NCBI GenBank assembly: GCA_000995135.1
Contig: LBWY01000016.1
Location: 1 to 33,110, forward strand
Direction: 5' to 3'
DNA from: Parcubacteria group bacterium GW2011_GWE2_39_37
Lineage (GTDB): Bacteria > Patescibacteriota > Patescibacteriia > Patescibacteriales > GWE2-39-37
Length of the DNA stretch: 33,110 nt
Positions 814 through 16,016 of the stretch are shown in pieces; within the stretch, counting starts at the first letter, position 1; the number at the start of each line of letters is the position of its first letter. Both the position numbers and the translations under genes were made by a program. Under the pieces are notes generated by a model. That model was not told the DNA's origin. It searched no databases and was given only the letters and a program-made list of their open reading frames with translations.

Positions 814-848
814 GTTAAAAAAAAGGTAATTCCATGGGAATTACCTTT
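814..848 (-). terminator. Intrinsic terminator of the REC-radical SAM gene
   Basis: A perfect 12-bp inverted repeat, AAAGGTAATTCC (822-833) and GGAATTACCTTT (837-848), with a 3-base loop. Read on the minus strand it is followed by a run of eight T (817-824). It lies about 85 bases past the stop of the minus-strand gene ending at 932. Confidence 0.85.
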
Positions 849-931: not shown

Positions 932-2368
932 TTATTTCATTTTATCGGCATCTTCAAGCCACTCCACGATACAGCCGCCGCAGCCTGCATTTATCAGCAT
1001 ACCGATGATGTCCCTGATGCGGACATCCTTGACACCTTCTTTCTTAAGGTAACCTCGGAAGCGTTTAACGTCTTCCATGGTCGTCCCTTTTGCTTCATCA
1101 AAGCCGTTGGCATGGTCTAGACTACCTGGCACCAATGCCATCAGTTTGATTCTAAAAATCGGTCTGCCGTCTGGCAAAAAACGGTTACCATAAAAATCTG
1201 CGATCATCCTGGCGTCTTCGATGCTGTCATTGACGCCCTTCATCACTACCCAAGAGATAGTCACCGGCTGATTAGTCATCTGAGCGATGATCTCATCACA
1301 ATTCCGGATCCTCGTCAAAGGCTCCTTGATGGTGCCGGGCTTTAAACGAAACCTGGTTTCCGGCAACAAAGAATCGATACTTCTGTGATGGGTTACACGG
1401 GGAAGGTTTATATACTTCCTGATGTATTCCAACAGAGCGCTCTCACTGCCCACGGAGGTAATCTTAAAGCTGATATCCAGGGCAGTGATTTTTGATAACT
1501 GGATAAAAGTTTTCATACAGTTGTCCAGATTCCAAACCAAACCGTCACCTTCGGAGGCAAGATTGAATATCAGTTTTGTCTTTCCTCCTTTTTTTAAGAA
1601 ATTTTTTACCTTCGGACTGTTTAAGGCCACATAGGCCTGACCGATGATCTCTCCCTCAGTAAGCGGGCGGATGAATTTTACTTTGTGCCCGTACCGATTC
1701 CTTCTGTTCCGCGGATTCTTGCAATTCACGCAGTCTGCTGGACAGCCGAGCAAGGAAGACAAGGAGATATTGACAACGCCTTTCTTTTTCCTGTAGATCA
1801 CAGTGTTTATAAAAGCGCCATCCAAAACGCACCGGCTAGTTATTTTTTCTGATTCCTCCCCCGGTCTTGTCCGATCCGTCCTCCTTGAATGGAAAGTCAA
1901 GGATTCAAACCCTTGAAAATACTGTGTGGACAACCAGAGGTTAAGCATGACATCAGGCGGGTTTGCTCTTCTTCGTTCTGGTTTCATCAACTTTTTACAG
2001 CTATCAAGAAGTGTGTTGATGTTAACCGGCTTGATTATGGCGTCGTCTGGTTTATAAGTGAGCCTGGCAGCCAAATCTGCATTGCCCGTGATGACCACGA
2101 CATTCACATTGCCGATTATTTCTATAACTCGGCGACCAAACTCCTCTCCTGACCACAGCTTTGTCTGAGGTAAAAGCTGCATTTGCAGATCAAGCAGAAT
2201 CAGATTAAACATCACCCCGGTAATTAAAGAAGAAGTGATTATCTGATTCGCCAAATCGATACTGTCAGCCTCAACCACCTCATAGCCGGAGTTTCTCAGA
2301 ATCTTCGCTGTGAACTTCAAACTGTCCAATTCATCTTCGACCACCAAAATTCTTCCTTTTGTTTTCAT
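932..2368 (-). CDS. Response-regulator receiver domain fused to RlmN/Cfr-like radical SAM enzyme
   Basis: 478 residues. Residues 5-128 form a receiver domain with all key residues: acidic pair E11/D12, phospho-acceptor D60 (LILLDLQM), switch T94 (VVITGN) and K113 (IIKPVN). An insertion (QLLPQTKLWSGEEF) follows beta-3. Residues about 180-470 form a radical SAM domain: CxxxCxxC at C209/C213/C216 (LLGCPADCVNC) should bind the [4Fe-4S]-SAM cluster. The later VVMKGVNDSIEDA and the terminal AGCGGC resemble the VMLxGVNDS and ACGQL motifs of the rRNA methyltransferases RlmN/Cfr; C463 or C466 could match the catalytic Cys. Substrate is unknown: RNA methylation is inferred from resemblance only. A strong SD (AAAGGAG, 8 bases before ATG) supports the start. 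The gene follows the receiver-PAS-kinase gene after 62 bp on the same strand, so phospho-control of the enzyme by that kinase is plausible. Confidence 0.85.
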   Translation of the reverse strand: MKTKGRILVVEDELDSLKFTAKILRNSGYEVVEADSIDLANQIITSSLITGVMFNLILLDLQMQLLPQTKLWSGEEFGRRVIEIIGNVNVVVITGNADLAARLTYKPDDAIIKPVNINTLLDSCKKLMKPERRRANPPDVMLNLWLSTQYFQGFESLTFHSRRTDRTRPGEESEKITSRCVLDGAFINTVIYRKKKGVVNISLSSLLGCPADCVNCKNPRNRRNRYGHKVKFIRPLTEGEIIGQAYVALNSPKVKNFLKKGGKTKLIFNLASEGDGLVWNLDNCMKTFIQLSKITALDISFKITSVGSESALLEYIRKYINLPRVTHHRSIDSLLPETRFRLKPGTIKEPLTRIRNCDEIIAQMTNQPVTISWVVMKGVNDSIEDARMIADFYGNRFLPDGRPIFRIKLMALVPGSLDHANGFDEAKGTTMEDVKRFRGYLKKEGVKDVRIRDIIGMLINAGCGGCIVEWLEDADKMK

Positions 2369-2430
2369 CGCTCATTCTCCTTTGTTTTGGATTTTAAATG
2401 ACCAGCTTAACTATATAAAATAATTAAAAA

Positions 2431-4083
2431 TTACCCTCGTGGCAAATTGACAGTAAATAACGAACCCTTGCCAAGTGCACTCTCCACTTCAATTTTTCCC
2501 CCGTGTCCGTTTGCCACCCACTGACAGATTGCTAAGCCCAAGCCAGAACCTCCATCATTTCTTGTCCTTGCTCGGTCCACCCGATAAAAACGCTCAAAAA
2601 TATTCGGTAAATGTTCTTGAGAAATACCGACTCCATTATCTTCGACCATAATTTTTATTTCTGTTTCTGTTATCTCTTTCCAAATCCTTATCCATCCATT
2701 ATTTTTATTATATCGGATAGCATTTCTGATCAAATTCGAAAATAATTTTTCTAACTTGCTTTCATCTGCCATCATTTCTGTCCCGATTATATCTTTTTTA
2801 AATTCAATTTTTATATTTTTAGTATCCGCGATCACCTTTAGAGATTTGCAAACCAAAGAGATCAGCTCATCTAAATTAATTTTTTTATAATTTAACCTCT
2901 GATTGTCCTCGGAATTAGTAATGGTTGCCAAATCAGTCAACATAGCCGACATTCTTTTGACTTCGCTCAAAATTTGTTGATGTGACTCTAAGTTTTCTGA
3001 CTTACAATCTTTGTTTATAAACATCAATTCGAGATTACCTTGGATAATCGTCAATGAAGTTCTTAGCTCATGCGAAACATCAGCCATAAAAATTGACTTT
3101 AGCTCGAGAACTTTATTCAATTCCATATTGACCGCGTTCAATTCGGCAGTTCTTTTCGTAACTTTTTTTTCAAGCTCATTGTTCAATTCCAACAACTTAT
3201 TTTTTGCCAATACCGCCTCCGTATTATCGATTGCCATCGAAATCGCGCCTTCGATATTGCCTTTATTATCTAAGAAAGGGACGGCAATGATCTTGAAATA
3301 TTTATCCTCCCCTGCGCTATTCCTTTCGTAACAATTATCTCTTCTGACTATCGTTCCATTAGCCAATAATTTTTTGTAGTCATCAACCAGTTTTTCTCGA
3401 TTAAAAAAACTACCGGTAAAAATACTATGTTTACGGTAGTCTTTTTTTGAGTTTGAAAAATTATTATAATATTTATTCGCCGAAGTAACATACCCCTCTT
3501 TGTCTAGAGTAATGATACTGACTGGTACATTATCCAAAATAATATTATTGAATTCATTCAGCTTGCGACTTTCCTCTTCTGTCGGCTTTTCGAATGTTTT
3601 TGCAACTATCTCCTGCTTATTGTTTTCTGAATTTTTATTTGTAAAATCAAAACTGACTTGTTTCGGCACTGGTTTCTTATTCTGCCTAAGAGGTCTATTT
3701 TTTTCACTTAAAATGTTTTTCTTCTGCTTCTGTTTCAACAGCATTCTTATTCTTTCAATCAATTCATTTAAAGAAAAAGGTTTTACCAGGTAATCGTCTG
3801 CTCCTGCTTCCAGTCCTTTCTTTTTATCCGCGTTGGTATCGCGGGCGGTCAACATTATTATAGGAGTGTTGATCTTGTTTCTGCGGATAGCACGACAAAC
3901 CGTCAAACCGTCCATTTTCGGCAACATCATATCCAGTATTATCAAGTCGTATTCATTTTTCTCTGCCAAGGCCAAGCCTTTTTCTCCGTCATGGGCAACG
4001 TCAACCGAAAAAAACTCCATCTCCAAACCCTTTTTAAGGAGATAAGTTATACTGACCTCGTCTTCGATAACCAGAATAGTCAT
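2431..4083 (-). CDS. Soluble hybrid histidine kinase: receiver-PAS-HisKA-HATPase
   Basis: 550 residues from ATG 4083. The receiver domain is at the N-terminus (residues 1-120: E7/D8, phospho-acceptor D51 in LIILDMMLPKMDG, T79, K101). A PAS domain follows (about 176-290), then a coiled-coil linker (295-330), HisKA with H338 in DVSHELRTSL, and HATPase_c with N454, DNGVGI (482-487) and GGSGLGLAIC (511-520). No membrane segment is visible, so the input is probably intracellular or comes through the receiver. Receiver-first order is the reverse of most hybrid kinases. The longer reading from TTG 4167 is rejected: that TTG is part of a TTGACA box, the extra 28 residues look like noise, and ATG 4083 begins exactly at a normal receiver N-terminus (MTILVIEDE). 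The gene is followed after 62 bp by the REC-radical SAM gene, probably as one transcription unit. Confidence 0.9.
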   Translation of the reverse strand: MTILVIEDEVSITYLLKKGLEMEFFSVDVAHDGEKGLALAEKNEYDLIILDMMLPKMDGLTVCRAIRRNKINTPIIMLTARDTNADKKKGLEAGADDYLVKPFSLNELIERIRMLLKQKQKKNILSEKNRPLRQNKKPVPKQVSFDFTNKNSENNKQEIVAKTFEKPTEEESRKLNEFNNIILDNVPVSIITLDKEGYVTSANKYYNNFSNSKKDYRKHSIFTGSFFNREKLVDDYKKLLANGTIVRRDNCYERNSAGEDKYFKIIAVPFLDNKGNIEGAISMAIDNTEAVLAKNKLLELNNELEKKVTKRTAELNAVNMELNKVLELKSIFMADVSHELRTSLTIIQGNLELMFINKDCKSENLESHQQILSEVKRMSAMLTDLATITNSEDNQRLNYKKINLDELISLVCKSLKVIADTKNIKIEFKKDIIGTEMMADESKLEKLFSNLIRNAIRYNKNNGWIRIWKEITETEIKIMVEDNGVGISQEHLPNIFERFYRVDRARTRNDGGSGLGLAICQWVANGHGGKIEVESALGKGSLFTVNLPRG

Positions 4084-4099
4084 GTTTTTCTTAAATAAT

Positions 4100-4167
4100 A
4101 GACAAAAAATAATAATTTGTCTTTTTTTAAGTTTTCTTAACTTATCATAAAATGCGCAAATTGTCAA
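4100..4167 (-). promoter_or_regulatory. Upstream region of the kinase gene: TTGACA box and leader hairpin
   Basis: On the minus strand a TTGACA hexamer occupies 4167-4162, but no good -10 lies 16-18 bp away; the nearby TATGAT is too close. Between it and the kinase ATG (4083) is an inverted repeat, AGACAAA (4100-4106) with TTTGTCT (4116-4122). In the minus-strand transcript it forms a hairpin ending 17 bases before the start codon, so it could affect ribosome access. Confidence 0.35.
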
Positions 4168-7771: not shown

Positions 7772-8458
7772 TTATCTTTTCGGATTGATTCTTCTGGTCA
7801 GATCATCCAATATTTTAGCTGCACTTTCTCTGCCCCCGAGGCCGAATGCCAACCCGCCAGCCAATGAAAGCATGAACACGATTCCAGTAAAAAGGATATT
7901 CAATAATGAAACTGCTATGCCAAGCTGGATAAAAGCCGCCATGAAAGAAAAGATTATGATGGCCCATTCTGAGATCAGAGCGATAAGATTTGCCGAATCA
8001 CCGGTAATCCTATTCGTCTGTCCTGCCTTCTTTACTGCATTGCCGACGAACTCACCGATGATGAAACCGAGGGTAAGGATTACCACCGCCACGAACAATC
8101 TTGGTATGTATGCAACTACGGAATCGAAGAATTGACTGATCTGCGGCAGTCGTAAAATGTCAGCAGCTGATATCAAAGTTACGAATATGACGAACCATTT
8201 GACGAACCAGGCCAGGATATCAGCAATAGTAAAATCCCAACCGAAGCTTTTAATTTTTTGATTGATTCCTACTCTATTAAATAAGTCATCAAGCTTCAGC
8301 CAATAGACCGCTTTCTTTATCAACTTCGCTAGAGCATTCGCAATTATCAAACCCAGAATCAAGACAATGATTGCAGCCAACAGTTGCGGAATAAAGCCTA
8401 TCATCCTATCCCAAAGATTTATAAAAGAAATTTTAATTGAATCTGCTTGCTCATTCAT
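7772..8458 (-). CDS. MscS-like conserved TM-helix membrane protein
   Basis: 228 residues with about five hydrophobic helices (roughly 23-43, 80-100, 117-140, 160-180, 184-207). It matches the pattern of small proteins with repeated 'conserved TM helix' units related to mechanosensitive channels: two similar units, PQLLAAIIVLILGLIIANAL and PRLFVAVVILTLGFIIGEFV, each introduce a helix. The last helix ends in SLAGGLAFGLGGRESAAKIL, which recalls the MscS pore helix and its glycine/alanine packing. The soluble MscS beta domain is absent, so channel activity is uncertain. No SD is seen before ATG 8458. Confidence 0.8.
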   Translation of the reverse strand: MNEQADSIKISFINLWDRMIGFIPQLLAAIIVLILGLIIANALAKLIKKAVYWLKLDDLFNRVGINQKIKSFGWDFTIADILAWFVKWFVIFVTLISAADILRLPQISQFFDSVVAYIPRLFVAVVILTLGFIIGEFVGNAVKKAGQTNRITGDSANLIALISEWAIIIFSFMAAFIQLGIAVSLLNILFTGIVFMLSLAGGLAFGLGGRESAAKILDDLTRRINPKR

Positions 8459-8582: not shown

Positions 8583-10301
8583 TTATTTCTTTACCGGCAG
8601 GGATAAATAAAAAGTGGTGCCTTTATTTTCTTTGGTTTCAAACCAGATCTTTCCGCCAGAAGCTTCAGTGATCATCTTTGCCAGATACAAACCGAGTCCG
8701 GTGCCATCATTAGTCAATTGATTGGCGGCTTCAGTCCGGAAAAACTTACTGAAAAGCTTAGACGTATCTTTGGTGGCTATACCGATGCCATTATCCTTAA
8801 CGCTTAGGACGTAGTTATCCTTTTCTTTTGCGATTTTCATTACCACCTGTTTGCCCTTGCCGGAATATTTTATCGCGTTCGTCAACATATTCTGGATGAC
8901 TTGGCTCACCAAAGTCGGATCAGCGTTAATGTTCAATCTTTTTGCCACAAACGGTTTGAATATGATCTTGATCCGGTGCTCATTTGCTAAAGCGATACAA
9001 TTCTCAACCGAATTATTCACGAGTTCGATCAGATCACAAGTCTCTGGTTCTGGCTTTATCTTTCCCGATTCCAGGCGGGAGATATTTAAAAGATCATCAA
9101 TCAGTTTGATCATCCTGTTAACTGATATATTTATCCTTTCAAGATACAAAGACTTCTTTTCTTTGTCGTTTTTCGAGTGTAGCAACTCATCGCTGAACAG
9201 CTTTATCGTAGTCAGCGGTGTTTTTAATTGATGAGTAGCCAAGGAAACAAATTCAGATTTCATCTTGTCCACCTCCCTGGCAGCAGTTACATCCCTGAAG
9301 GCCACAATGCAACCGATCGTTTCACCATTGCTATCCACTAAAGGCGCGGCGCTTTTTTCTACCGGCAATTTACTGCCGTCTTTTTTTATCAACAAATCGC
9401 AGTTTCCATATTCATTACTTTTCCCATGCTTAAGTGTGTCTTCAATAAACCTATAACACAGCTTACCTTCACCATCTTCAAATTTCAAGAAAGTCTTATA
9501 ATTTTTGTCCAATACCTCACTAGCGCTATAGCCTGTCAGATTGTTGGCCATCCTATTAAAGATGATTATCTTGTTCAGGTTGTTGATTACAAAGACACCA
9601 TCAGCGATATTCTCCAAAACTGTTTCGATCCTCTTTTTTTCTGCTCCCAGTTTCTTGCTGTAATAAGAAATCTTGTTTTCAGAGATTTTCAATTCCCTAA
9701 CCTTATCATTCAAAGAAGCCTCTTTATTCTCGTACAAATTTTTAGAGATATTGATGATCAAACCGGCAGTGAATAAAGAGATGCCTTGCAAAAGCAAAAG
9801 TAAAAGCTCTACCGAATGGATCGAATGTTCATAAAGACAAAGCGCGATCAAGGCGCCAAGAACAAAGATTAAAAAAATCGCCGTTAAAAATAGACCACCA
9901 TAGAGCGGAGCGGAAATCGCTGTCAAAAAAACCAAAGGATATTTTATTGGAGAATAATGACCGCCCGTATTAATGATGACGATCATCATGAAAAAAACAT
10001 ACAATAAAGAATCGATGGTAAATTGTATCTTGGGCGGGAGAATCTGTTTTCTTTTGAGCAGATCACTAAACAAAAAATATATTCCCAAGACCGCAAAAGA
10101 CAGAACAATGACCTCGGTGCTTTTCTGGAAATACCCTTGAGCGGCCAAAATCAATACTATCGAGAATAATATTATCGAATAGACAGTCATCACCCAAAAT
10201 TCCTTTCTAAGAGGCGCTTCGAAAAGCAGATCTTTGATTTCGTACATTATCTTATCTCTCAGATTGATGCCTGGAAAATAGATTCTTTTTGCCTTTTGCA
10301 T
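8583..10301 (-). CDS. Membrane PAS histidine kinase
   Basis: 572 residues. The N-terminal membrane domain has about six hydrophobic helices between residues 36 and 185. A coiled coil (187-225) leads to a PAS domain (225-342; NIADGVFVINNLNKIIIFNR, then CIVAFRDVTAAREVDKMKSEF). HisKA has H357 in SLATHQLKTPLTTIK, followed by HATPase_c with N475 (NMLTNAIKYS), DNGIGI (503-508) and GTGLGLYLAKM. All catalytic boxes are intact. The loosely defined membrane domain resembles multi-helix sensing modules rather than a periplasmic loop sensor, suggesting detection in or near the membrane. No response regulator is adjacent, so its partner is encoded elsewhere or is one of the receivers at 0.9-4.1 kb. An internal ATG at 10247 is a possible alternative start; neither has a clear SD. 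Confidence 0.9.
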   Translation of the reverse strand: MQKAKRIYFPGINLRDKIMYEIKDLLFEAPLRKEFWVMTVYSIILFSIVLILAAQGYFQKSTEVIVLSFAVLGIYFLFSDLLKRKQILPPKIQFTIDSLLYVFFMMIVIINTGGHYSPIKYPLVFLTAISAPLYGGLFLTAIFLIFVLGALIALCLYEHSIHSVELLLLLLQGISLFTAGLIINISKNLYENKEASLNDKVRELKISENKISYYSKKLGAEKKRIETVLENIADGVFVINNLNKIIIFNRMANNLTGYSASEVLDKNYKTFLKFEDGEGKLCYRFIEDTLKHGKSNEYGNCDLLIKKDGSKLPVEKSAAPLVDSNGETIGCIVAFRDVTAAREVDKMKSEFVSLATHQLKTPLTTIKLFSDELLHSKNDKEKKSLYLERINISVNRMIKLIDDLLNISRLESGKIKPEPETCDLIELVNNSVENCIALANEHRIKIIFKPFVAKRLNINADPTLVSQVIQNMLTNAIKYSGKGKQVVMKIAKEKDNYVLSVKDNGIGIATKDTSKLFSKFFRTEAANQLTNDGTGLGLYLAKMITEASGGKIWFETKENKGTTFYLSLPVKK

Positions 10302-11358: not shown

Positions 11359-13254
11359 TTATATTAAATTCTTAATCATCTTTTCCAGTCGTTCGATGCT
11401 CTCATCCATTTTTATTCCTTCGCCCAAAACTCCTTGCCAAAGATCGCCGTATTTTTTTATCCTGGACAATGCATTGAAAATATTAAAACTTTTCGGGTTC
11501 AGGTTCTCATTGACTTCCGACCAAGCAAGCGGCATCGATATCGGCGCACCTTTTTCCGGTCTCAATGAATAGGCGCTTGCCAAGGTCTGTCCTCGCCTAT
11601 TCTGCAAATAATCAAGATAAACTTTCTCAGTTCTTTGCGCGGGCATTCTTTTCAGACTAGTGATTTTCGACAAATTTCTCGAAACGATCATGTTGATGAT
11701 CAAGGCAAATCTTCTTGCCTGTTCATAGTCATATTTAGCCTGCAACGGAATAAAAATATGCAAACCGGTCAAGCCGGAAGTTTTGCAATATGCTTTGACT
11801 TCGATCTTTTTCAATATATCATTGGTCGCGAGCGCAGCTTTGACCACTTGCTTGAAACCGATGTTTAAAGGATCCAGATCAAGAATCAGGTAATCTGGAT
11901 GATCCAGGCTTTGAATCCTGGAATTCCAAGGATTGATCTCGATACAGCCCAGATTGACCATATATAAAAGAGTCTCTTTATTCTGACAAAGCAGATAATT
12001 TATTTCCTTGTTTTCCGTATCGGATAATATCTTGATCGATTCGATTCCTGCCGGCAGAGTTGTATTATTTTTTTGATAGAAGGATGGCCCATCAATCCCG
12101 TGCGGAAAACGATGCAGATTTTCAGGCCGGTCTTTAAGATAAGGCAGAATATAATCGGAAAGCTTTTCGTAATAATCAAGGACATCTTTTTTGGTGTGTC
12201 CTTCATTCGGCCACAGGACCTTGTCCAAATTGCTGAATTTTTCAAACCCCTGCTCTTCATGATTATTCATAAGAGTGCTAACTTTTTGCGGTACTTCTCT
12301 GACAACTTCTTTTGGCCGCTTGTCTTCACGCAAGCCGACAAATACCGGATGCCTCATTGAACCATCATCAGTCCATTCTGTAAATCTGATTTCACAAACC
12401 AATTTCGGTTCTACCCAGGTCACTTGGGCGTTCGTCTTCGGCATTAGTTCAAAAGGAGAGTGATCGCTTCTTATCGTCATTAACCTGGACTTAAGTTCTG
12501 CTAATTCTGTTTCATTGAAGCCGCCGCCCGAATGGCCGGCATAGACTAGTCTATCCGATTCATAGACCCCCAAAACCAATGAGCCTAGATGTTTACGGCC
12601 TTTTCTAGGTGCAGTAAAACCGCAGATGATCGCTTCCTGCGTCTGTAGATTTTTTACCTTCAGCCAATCATCGGTCCTCTGCCCCTCGACATATCCGCTC
12701 AAAGAATTTTTTGCCATCACACCCTCGATTCCCAGGGCGGCTACAGATGAAAAAAAATTTTTTCCTTCTTTTTCAATATGATCCGCATACCTGATGTTGG
12801 TAAATTCCGGCAAAATATCTTTTAAGATTTTTTTTCTTTCTCGTAACTGCAATCCCCTCAAATCATATTTCCCATAAAAGAGGAGATCAAAGACAAAATA
12901 AATCGGATAGCCGCTTCCAGTCTTAAGATGATTCTGCAATAGTTTGAAATCAGCCTTACCCTTGTCATCCAAAACCACCACCTCACCATCAAGCACGATA
13001 GGGGCAGGAAGTTTTTCTAGAGCTTTCACAATCGCAGGAAATTTTTCAGTATAAAGCAGCTTGTTCCTGGAATAAAGATCTATGCGACGATCAATGATCG
13101 CGATTATGCGATAGCCGTCAAATTTTATCTCAAAAAACCAATCCCCCTTATCGAACGGCCGATCAACAGATTTTGCCAGCATCGGACTCACAGTATCTGG
13201 GATCTTGCCGATCATTTTCGCTTTTTTAAAGATGGCAGAGATATCGTCTTTCAT
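11359..13254 (-). CDS. ligD: ATP-dependent DNA ligase D (ligase + polymerase domains)
   Basis: 631 residues. Residues 20-200 are the adenylation domain with catalytic K44 in FEIKFDGYR, LDGEVVVLD (88-96) and WLKVKN (197-202). An OB domain follows (205-310: LGSLVLGVYESD, FTEWTDDGSMRHPVF). Residues 338-610 are the AEP/primase-like polymerase domain with the metal-binding pair D459/D461 (LILDLDPL), SGLTGLHIFIPL (493-504) and a third Asp at 548 (VYLDYLQNRRGQTLASAYS). The N-terminal phosphoesterase module of Pseudomonas/Mycobacterium LigD is absent, a common variant. It fills and seals breaks held by Ku, whose gene is 17 bp upstream in the same direction. No frameshift is visible and the length is normal for the two-domain form. 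Confidence 0.95.
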   Translation of the reverse strand: MKDDISAIFKKAKMIGKIPDTVSPMLAKSVDRPFDKGDWFFEIKFDGYRIIAIIDRRIDLYSRNKLLYTEKFPAIVKALEKLPAPIVLDGEVVVLDDKGKADFKLLQNHLKTGSGYPIYFVFDLLFYGKYDLRGLQLRERKKILKDILPEFTNIRYADHIEKEGKNFFSSVAALGIEGVMAKNSLSGYVEGQRTDDWLKVKNLQTQEAIICGFTAPRKGRKHLGSLVLGVYESDRLVYAGHSGGGFNETELAELKSRLMTIRSDHSPFELMPKTNAQVTWVEPKLVCEIRFTEWTDDGSMRHPVFVGLREDKRPKEVVREVPQKVSTLMNNHEEQGFEKFSNLDKVLWPNEGHTKKDVLDYYEKLSDYILPYLKDRPENLHRFPHGIDGPSFYQKNNTTLPAGIESIKILSDTENKEINYLLCQNKETLLYMVNLGCIEINPWNSRIQSLDHPDYLILDLDPLNIGFKQVVKAALATNDILKKIEVKAYCKTSGLTGLHIFIPLQAKYDYEQARRFALIINMIVSRNLSKITSLKRMPAQRTEKVYLDYLQNRRGQTLASAYSLRPEKGAPISMPLAWSEVNENLNPKSFNIFNALSRIKKYGDLWQGVLGEGIKMDESIERLEKMIKNLI

Positions 13255-13271
13255 TTCATATCATTAAACGG

Positions 13272-14051
13272 CTATTTTCTTTTTTGCGCGTACTCAAGAC
13301 TTTCCTTCAACTTTGCCATTATATCCGGGATTGCGGTAGGGACAGGCATCTCCTCTTTTTCGATCCTGAACACCTTGCCTTTCAATTTATGATCGATTAT
13401 TATCTGCAACTGCTCATTATAGGTGTCTTTATATTTTTCAGGCTGAAAAGGAATGGTAAGCTGATTGATCAGCTGGATCGCAATTTCAAGTTCCTTGGCG
13501 GTGAATTCATTTTTCCGAGGCAGAAACAATTCATCTGTTCGCCTCAACTGTTCTGGAAAACGCAGCTGATTTAAGATCAAAGCCTCCTTGTCTGCCGCAA
13601 TCACCACCAGATATTCGCGGGTATGCATGACAAATTTAGCGATACCCGCTTTTTTTGATTTCCTCAGCGCTTCGCGTAAGATCGCATAAGCCTTGCTGGT
13701 ATTTTTTTCCGGCTCGATATAATAGGGCTTTTCAAACAATTTATAATCTATCTCTTCCTGTTTGATGAAACCGACGATCTCGATCATCTGGCTGCGTTTC
13801 AGATTGATTTTTTTGAAATCCTCATCTTCAATCACTACGTACTGACCTTTCTCGAACTCATAACCGCGGACTATATCTTTGTAGGGCACCTCCTGTCCGT
13901 CTGTTTTGCAGATTTTCAAATACTTGATCGGGCACAAGTCTTTCTTGCGCAGATAATCGAAACTGAATTTCCTTTCTTCGCTGGCACTATAAATTTTTAT
14001 CGGTATATTGATCAGGCCGAAGCCGATTATACCGGACCAAATCGGGCGCAT
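13272..14051 (-). CDS. ku: Ku DNA end-binding protein
   Basis: 259 residues. Bacterial Ku signatures: start MRPIWSGIIGFGLINIPIKI, then CPIKYLKICKTDGQEVPYKDIV, GYEFEKGQYVVIEDEDF, KPYYIEPEKNTSKAYAILREA, FVMHTREYLVVI and PEQLRRTDELFLP. It forms a homodimeric ring on double-strand ends and recruits LigD, encoded 17 bp downstream. The Lys-rich C-terminal extension of some Ku proteins is short here. No SD is present. The 136 bp upstream contain a dyad that may serve this gene or the divergent glsB-like gene. Confidence 0.95.
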   Translation of the reverse strand: MRPIWSGIIGFGLINIPIKIYSASEERKFSFDYLRKKDLCPIKYLKICKTDGQEVPYKDIVRGYEFEKGQYVVIEDEDFKKINLKRSQMIEIVGFIKQEEIDYKLFEKPYYIEPEKNTSKAYAILREALRKSKKAGIAKFVMHTREYLVVIAADKEALILNQLRFPEQLRRTDELFLPRKNEFTAKELEIAIQLINQLTIPFQPEKYKDTYNEQLQIIIDHKLKGKVFRIEKEEMPVPTAIPDIMAKLKESLEYAQKRK

Positions 14052-14510: not shown

Positions 14511-16016
14511 TTAATCTTTATCATCAATTTTCGGCAATGGCTTTACTGCTGGTCCGTTTATAATTCCGCCTTCTTTTGTAAAACGTGAGCCATGACAAGG
14601 ACAATCCCAAGATTTTTCATTCGGGTTCCAATTGACTATGCAGCCTAGGTGGGTGCAGACAGCAGAATATGAATGCACTCTGCCATTCTCATCTTTATAT
14701 ACTGCCGCTTTCTGTCCCTTCAGAGTCATTGTCCTCCCTGTGCCTTTCTCTAGATCGGCAAAAACTGTTTTGTCTTTTTTGAAATACTGAAGATAATTCT
14801 TTAATCCTCTGGTCAACATTTCTCTGAATTGCTTAAAAGAAGCCATAGGCTTTACCTTGGTGGGATCATATAATTGGCTCCAATTGTTCTTTCTGCCCAT
14901 CACCAGATCGGTTATCAGCTTTGCGGAGACCAAACTGGTGGTCATGCCCCACTCTCCGAACCCGGTAATGACATAAACATTATCGGTATTCGGCATCCTG
15001 CCGATAAATGGCACCCTATCGATCGAGGTGCTATCCTGGGCTGCCCAAACATAATCGATTTTTTCAATGTCGAATTTTTTCCTAGCAAGTTCTTCTAGCC
15101 TCTTGAAATGATTAATGTTCTCTTCTTCACCAACTACATGATCTTCCGCGCCGATGATCGCCCATTTTTCCTCCTTGTCTTGATATGGCCGATGAGACAA
15201 TCTGTCGGTATCAAAATTTATGTAATTGATGTCGGCCACCGGTGTCTTCAGTTTCGCCGCCAGAGCATACGAGCGGATCTGACTCATTCTGAAGGCAAAA
15301 AAACCTTTATCATAAATCGGATAATTAGTAGCAATGATTACTTTTTTAGCCCTGATTTCACCTTGGTCAGTTATTACAGTAGATACATCCGCCTCCTTGA
15401 TATCAAGAACCTGAGTGTTTTCAAAAATATGATTATTTTTCTTAACTATTTTTTCTGCCAAAGCCAAGAGATATTTTCTTGGATGGAAACAAGCTTGATT
15501 TTCAAATTTTAATGCCCCGGTAATCGCGAATGGGATTCCGTCTACCCTATCTTCAATTGAGGCAGGCAAGCCGATCTGTCTGCAAGCCGCCAACTCATTT
15601 TCCAGCTCAGTCCTTCCTTCTTTAGTTGTAGCATAAACATAGGACGGCAGCCGTTGCAGATTACAATTGATGTTTTCTTTTTTGGTTATGTTTTCTAATT
15701 CTCGGATCGCCCATTCATTAGATTCTGCATAAAGCTTCGCTTTTTCAAAACCGTAATTTTTGATCAGAAATTCATATTTTATATCATGTTGTGAAGTTAC
15801 CTTGGCTGTAGTGTTGCCCGAGGTAGCCATTGCGATATCATACATTTCGATGACAGCAACTTTCAAGTTCTCCTGCATCAAAAAATAGGCGGCATTAAGA
15901 CCTGCTATGCCTCCGCCGACGACCACCACATCAACCAGAAGACCAGGCTCAAGCTTGGGATAATCAGCCGAAGGAGTCGTGCCTATCCAGATGGATTTTA
16001 TATTTTTTGGCAACAT
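14511..16016 (-). CDS. FAD-dependent oxidoreductase with C-terminal Rieske [2Fe-2S] domain
   Basis: 501 residues. Residues 28-60 are a Rossmann FAD-binding start (VVVVGGGIAGLNAAYFL, with E57 ending beta-2). The middle is DAO/glycine-oxidase-like (ATSGNTTAKVTSQHD, VIIATNYPIYD, SIDRVPFIGRMPNTDNVYVITGFGEWGMT). Residues about 410-501 are a Rieske domain with C454-T-H-L-G-C459 and C472-P-C-H475-G-S. Ligands would be C454, H456, C472 and H475, with C459-C474 as the usual disulfide. The family is known from Gram-positive and soil bacteria; its substrate is not established. No signal peptide is seen. It is flanked by two opposite-strand GlsB/YeaQ paralogs. Confidence 0.92.
   Translation of the reverse strand: MLPKNIKSIWIGTTPSADYPKLEPGLLVDVVVVGGGIAGLNAAYFLMQENLKVAVIEMYDIAMATSGNTTAKVTSQHDIKYEFLIKNYGFEKAKLYAESNEWAIRELENITKKENINCNLQRLPSYVYATTKEGRTELENELAACRQIGLPASIEDRVDGIPFAITGALKFENQACFHPRKYLLALAEKIVKKNNHIFENTQVLDIKEADVSTVITDQGEIRAKKVIIATNYPIYDKGFFAFRMSQIRSYALAAKLKTPVADINYINFDTDRLSHRPYQDKEEKWAIIGAEDHVVGEEENINHFKRLEELARKKFDIEKIDYVWAAQDSTSIDRVPFIGRMPNTDNVYVITGFGEWGMTTSLVSAKLITDLVMGRKNNWSQLYDPTKVKPMASFKQFREMLTRGLKNYLQYFKKDKTVFADLEKGTGRTMTLKGQKAAVYKDENGRVHSYSAVCTHLGCIVNWNPNEKSWDCPCHGSRFTKEGGIINGPAVKPLPKIDDKD

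Follow-up and report, generated by a model that had tools for sequence, protein, structure and literature searches.

A receiver domain fused to a divergent RlmN/Cfr-family radical SAM domain as a predicted two-component output in the Patescibacteriales

Background

In this work we describe a gene of Parcubacteria group bacterium GW2011_GWE2_39_37 in which a receiver domain is followed, in one frame, by a radical SAM domain of the RlmN/Cfr family. The gene lies in a stretch of 33,110 nucleotides (contig LBWY01000016.1), called the window below. The fusion is real, rare and unusual, and it joins two known families in a combination for which we found no description in open-access papers. Its architecture, its pairing with a histidine kinase, the loss of an OmpR-type output and the residues kept and lost against RlmN are established by comparison of sequences; from these we infer phosphotransfer, gating of the enzyme, methylation of a cysteine and a nucleic-acid substrate. 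On balance we favor the view that the protein is a two-component output in which an enzyme replaced an ancestral DNA-binding regulator, and that this enzyme is a phospho-gated radical SAM protein derived from the RlmN/Cfr family.

The outputs of two-component systems are mostly transcription, cyclic nucleotides or motility. In some response regulators, such as CheB, PleD and PorX, the receiver is joined to an enzyme, as it is in the fusion, and to our knowledge none of these or of the like response regulators has a radical SAM output. An earlier note on this DNA, made from the letters alone, had named the fusion as the best candidate in the window for an undescribed system. In the open-access literature we found no description of a receiver-radical SAM fusion or of any enzymatic response regulator with a radical SAM output. 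Receivers joined to metabolic enzymes are on record, and their distribution in archaea is narrow (PMC5847659).

Results

Fusion gene and its distribution

The features of the fusion gene and of the adjoining kinase gene are listed in Table 1. The receiver family PF00072 matches the window protein (P0001) over residues 6-122 with an E-value of 9e-9, a match above the Pfam cut-off, and a residue check found the active site of the receiver intact, with the acidic pair, the phospho-accepting aspartate, the threonine/serine and the lysine all in place. The ten residues named in the earlier note (E11, D12, D60, T94, K113, C209, C213, C216, C463 and C466) are all present, and its reading of the protein as a response regulator stands, with a receiver above cut-off and a likely cognate kinase next to it.

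Table 1. Features of the fusion gene and the neighboring kinase gene, in window coordinates
Feature	Position	Strand	Basis
REC-radical SAM fusion gene (P0001, 478 aa)	932..2368	-	single continuous frame; full-length homolog in genome G034
Receiver domain, residues 1-130 (E11, D12, D60, T94, K113)	1979..2368	-	PF00072 match and residue check
D60 codon, predicted phosphorylation site	2189..2191	-	receiver match and residue check; phosphorylation predicted
Radical SAM domain of the RlmN/Cfr family, residues 181-470	959..1828	-	profile matches, alignment, PDB and fold searches
S202, at the position of the RlmN resolving cysteine C118	1763..1765	-	alignment; Cys in 28/28 aligned RlmNs
CxxxCxxC cluster motif, C209/C213/C216	1721..1744	-	aligned with E. 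coli RlmN C125/C129/C132
C463-G-G-C466, with C463 at the position of the RlmN methyl-carrying C355	971..982	-	alignment
Shine-Dalgarno-like AAGGAGA, 7 nt 5' of the fusion ATG	2376..2382	-	read from sequence
Terminator-like hairpin 3' of the fusion gene	822..848	-	consensus match only
Histidine kinase gene, REC-PAS-HisKA-HATPase, likely start ATG at 4083	2431..4167	-	domain matches; 47% identical to G034 kinase
Codon of kinase residue H366 (in SHELR), the predicted phospho-donor	3070..3072	-	HisKA match and alignment
Kinase-fused receiver, from an OmpR-type regulator without its DNA-binding domain	3715..4083	-	identity to 11 OmpR receivers

The earlier note had proposed a search for other fusions of this kind, and our search of related genomes brought one more full-length member. 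Among the 145 related genomes covered, a single one (G034) stood out from the ordinary RlmNs. It is a metagenome-assembled genome of the same order but of another family, and its contig JAUSGE010000019.1 encodes a protein of 449 aa (P0002, frame L010) with the same domain order and a receiver match of E 9e-14. The radical SAM parts of the two fusions are 39% identical and their receivers only 25%, and the G034 receiver has D8-N9 where two acidic residues are expected. The scan of a second genome collection recovered only the same G034 record. Of 111 genomes searched within the order, a profile built from the two sequences picked out these 2 alone, and it detected no further fusion in 380 genomes of the phylum; in 381 genomes of the class it returned the two fusions together with two much lower-scoring proteins, identified by their motifs as ordinary RlmNs. 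Additional searches of the order were of small extent, and those that came back empty carry little weight. No fusion was found on viral contigs, and a tblastn search of plasmids with the G034 homolog gave weak partial matches only, which, where annotated, were Cfr or RlmN. Three IMG/VR contigs of 80-88 kb (L065, L073 and L074) bear RlmN-like genes that are mutually 90% identical, and the one that was read has both C118 and C355; these genes are possibly phage-borne, or possibly misclassified host DNA.

Family placement of the radical SAM domain

The generic radical SAM family PF04055 matches the window protein weakly (residues 206-384, E 0.018, under the Pfam cut-off). Among the NCBIfam models, those of Cfr, the C8-methyltransferase of 23S rRNA A2503 (TIGR04432, E 1e-10, 41.3 bits), and of RlmN, the C2-methyltransferase of 23S rRNA A2503 and tRNA A37 (TIGR00048, E 1.5e-10, 40.6 bits), both fall far short of the curated thresholds, which are 550 and 290 bits, respectively. 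The G034 homolog scores higher with the RlmN model (E 5e-17, 61.8 bits), which is also under the cut-off. In the fusions the matches to this model start at position 88 or 105 of 355; no sequence match to the N-terminal RNA-binding domain of RlmN was obtained in either protein, and the receiver occupies its place, with a linker that is modelled with low confidence.

Of the PDB sequences, Cfr alone (9p0p, E 2e-10) was matched by the radical SAM part of the window protein. A tree built from 36 sequences, however, places Cfr with RlmN, and both fusions split from the two families with a support of 99 on a long branch, where long-branch effects are possible. The radical SAM parts of the fusions are 29-30% identical to the RlmN of the window genome itself. 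This canonical RlmN is split across two contigs (C10 and C45) that overlap at their ends by about 40 bases without mismatch, the frame running on from one to the other, and it has both E105 and C118. Its presence rules out the fusion as the sole RlmN of the genome.

AlphaFold2 models of both fusions were built from shallow alignments that include RlmN sequences, and their mean pLDDT is middling (62.6 and 64.7). Searched with Foldseek, the window model had an RlmN-type methyltransferase (6fz6) and Cfr at the top and receivers next, and VIA-align gave a Z of 14.6 and an rmsd of 3.6 over 258 residues against 6fz6, and a Z of about 15 against receivers. The top 11 fold matches of the G034 model were all of the RlmN/Cfr type. 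The pLDDT of the loop that carries C463 is below 50, and this is likewise so for the equivalent loop in the G034 model.

Residues kept and lost against RlmN

In an alignment of the two fusions with 28 related RlmNs and the E. coli enzyme, both fusions retain the cysteines of the cluster (E. coli C125, C129 and C132) as well as C355, which is C463 in the window protein and C436 in the G034 homolog. Both thus bear the class A sequence signature, which consists of CxxxCxxC and a C-terminal methyl-carrying cysteine. They also retain R, N, D and G at positions where RlmN hardly varies. In contrast, C118 and Glu105, which are invariant in the 28 RlmNs, are replaced by S202 and N188 in the window protein and by G190 and A173 in the G034 homolog, where A173 falls in a loosely aligned stretch. 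The two fusions also have D and N instead of H235 and V and Q instead of N312, their SLH motif is altered, and the GMGEP motif of RlmN gives way to a stretch containing EGD. Four residues common to both (P235, S372, K408 and G462) differ from nearly all RlmNs. Among the positions changed with respect to RlmN are several that contact SAM or take part in catalysis.

By its sequence and predicted fold, the radical SAM part is a divergent RlmN/Cfr-family domain and neither RlmN nor Cfr. The RlmN/Cfr-like output proposed in the earlier note is upheld as far as the family is concerned, but an identification with RlmN or Cfr proper fails on the missing C118 and Glu105, on GMGEP and SLH, which do not have the RlmN form, and on the separate RlmN of the genome. 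With the residues on the substrate side of RlmN gone, family membership is no guide to the catalytic outcome.

The neighboring kinase and the OmpR-type regulator

The kinase gene of the window, likewise on the minus strand, lies 62 bp upstream of the fusion gene, and its product has no clear membrane span in the sequence. In G034, a PAS-HisKA-HATPase kinase also lies directly upstream of the fusion. This position in both genomes, together with 47% identity between the two kinases over 399 aa, supports the pairing of kinase and fusion. The two genes fit a two-gene operon, since the kinase gene adjoins upstream and a terminator-like hairpin follows the fusion gene. In G034, the fusion is directly followed, with a slight overlap and on the same strand, by a gene for an HAD-type hydrolase (L039, 7244-7966), which has no counterpart directly after the window fusion.

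Thirteen other genomes of the order, including G034, have a kinase that is at least 44% identical to the window kinase over its PAS-HisKA-HATPase part. The neighborhoods of the 12 kinases outside G034 were compared. In 11 of them (L051-L058 and L060-L062) an OmpR-type regulator of approximately 230 aa is encoded directly upstream of the kinase, and in the twelfth (L059) the kinase starts at the contig end. The kinases of these pairs are orthologous to that of the window, with 43-49% identity. The one regulator that was scanned has a receiver and a Trans_reg_C domain, and on alignment the C-terminal part is alike in all 11, so that these pairs end in a DNA-binding domain, whereas the window locus lacks that domain and has the fusion instead. 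The window kinase itself is composed of a receiver, a short linker and the kinase part; this receiver is 55-64% identical to those of the 11 OmpR regulators, and the DNA-binding domain is absent. The remaining full-length OmpR matches in the window genome (G000) and in G034 belong to a different regulator-kinase pair and were rejected as the missing partner.

The fusion is absent from all 11 genomes with the kinase-OmpR pair, and a stand-alone DNA-binding partner is absent in both fusion genomes versus none of the 11 others (Fisher p = 1/78, relatedness ignored). In G034, 194 bp separate the kinase from the end of its contig, and an upstream partner may therefore be missing from the assembly, although G034 is given as 97% complete; the window genome is only 83% complete. 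Given that the fusion genomes are without the DNA-binding partner and the genomes with the partner are without the fusion, the radical SAM fusion appears, on this comparison of gene neighborhoods, to have taken over from the transcription factor as the output of the pathway. The kinase tree gives no resolution as to a single origin of the fusion.

Four of the kinase orthologs (L051, L054, L060 and L061) have long and variable N-terminal extensions, for a total of 840 to about 1140 aa, next to the same OmpR regulator, from which it follows that the input side of the kinase family also changes quickly.

Other genes were noticed in the window. A second PAS-HisKA-HATPase histidine kinase of 572 aa is encoded a few genes upstream (8583-10301, minus strand), next to a mechanosensitive-channel-like gene (7772-8458). 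Adjoining genes at 11359-14051 (minus strand) encode a LigD-type protein, with an ATP-dependent ligase followed by a primase-polymerase, and Ku, the two members of a bacterial end-joining pair; the genome has a size of about 1 Mb. The gene at 14511-16016 (minus strand) encodes an FAD-dependent oxidoreductase with a C-terminal Rieske domain.

Discussion

In the mechanism that we propose, the PAS kinase would sense a signal, autophosphorylate at H366 and then pass the phosphate to D60 of the fusion protein. The receiver stands at the place of the N-terminal RNA-binding domain of RlmN, and its phosphorylation would open or close the active site. This site would bind a 4Fe-4S cluster via C209, C213 and C216, and, by analogy with class A methylases, the methyl group would probably be carried by C463; in Cfr, the C338A mutant, changed at the equivalent of C355, is unable to accept the methyl group (PMC3702613). 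As C118, Glu105 and several SAM contacts are gone, it is probable that the fusion has a different substrate or completes the reaction in a different way, for instance by means of another thiol. RNA is our best guess for the substrate, because every close relative acts on RNA.

The absence of C118 makes an ordinary RlmN turnover unlikely. An alternative resolving thiol may be C466 in the window protein and C194, near the cluster motif, in the G034 homolog, or else a covalent adduct may persist instead of being resolved by a different thiol. It was by means of the C118A mutant that a covalent complex was trapped in the RlmN-tRNA structures (PMC5130265). More tentatively, the output of the system could be a radical marking of RNA, gated by the receiver and carried out without C118, which would leave either a new mark, through a thiol such as C466, or a lasting enzyme-RNA adduct. 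Against the reading as a phospho-gated enzyme weigh the small number of members, which are two only, the D8-N9 of the G034 receiver, the contig end in G034 and the middling models.

Other explanations have to be weighed against it. The radical SAM domain might be non-catalytic and serve as a phospho-controlled binder of RNA or protein, or keep its cluster as a redox sensor. Several SAM-contact and catalytic positions are indeed changed and the long branches denote fast change, but decay should not spare the cluster cysteines, the methyl-carrying cysteine and the near-invariant R, N, D and G, which makes this explanation unlikely. That a protein or a small molecule is the target of the domain, with the receiver serving only to bring the enzyme to a partner, we regard as quite unlikely: the unrecognizable RNA-binding domain and the non-standard acidic pair of the G034 receiver would agree with it, while the closest relatives are all RNA methylases and no small-molecule biosynthetic gene was recognized beside either copy.

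A phospho-regulated but otherwise ordinary RlmN/Cfr-type methylase, forming m2A or m8A in rRNA or tRNA upon a signal, would be in line with the two closest families and with the conserved cluster and methyl-carrying cysteines. It would also have a parallel in Enterococcus faecalis, where RlmN is an environment-responsive switch, as oxidants inactivate its Fe-S cluster and m2A falls in rRNA and tRNA (PMC10336011). However, C118 and Glu105 are absent and E. coli RlmN with C118A forms no m2A (PMC5130265); in addition, the RlmN N-terminal domain is not recognizable, the genome already has a canonical RlmN and the fusions branch outside RlmN and Cfr, and we hold this explanation to be quite unlikely. 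As to an artefact of assembly or annotation joining two genes, the window genome is a metagenome-assembled genome that is 83% complete, but the frame is continuous with its own Shine-Dalgarno-like site, and a full-length protein of this layout in a second genome, which was assembled independently and comes from a different family of the order, makes chance or mis-assembly so improbable that we consider it ruled out.

The two fusion loci and their relatives appear to represent a natural swapping of outputs, in which one kinase family is served by a transcription factor in some genomes and by an enzyme in others. As a natural relative of RlmN that is devoid of C118, the fusion is of relevance to the way in which the covalent intermediate is resolved in class A methylases. 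Finally, a receiver joined to a radical enzyme of the RNA-methylase type would let a sensed signal act directly through chemical modification, for which the translation machinery is a possible target.
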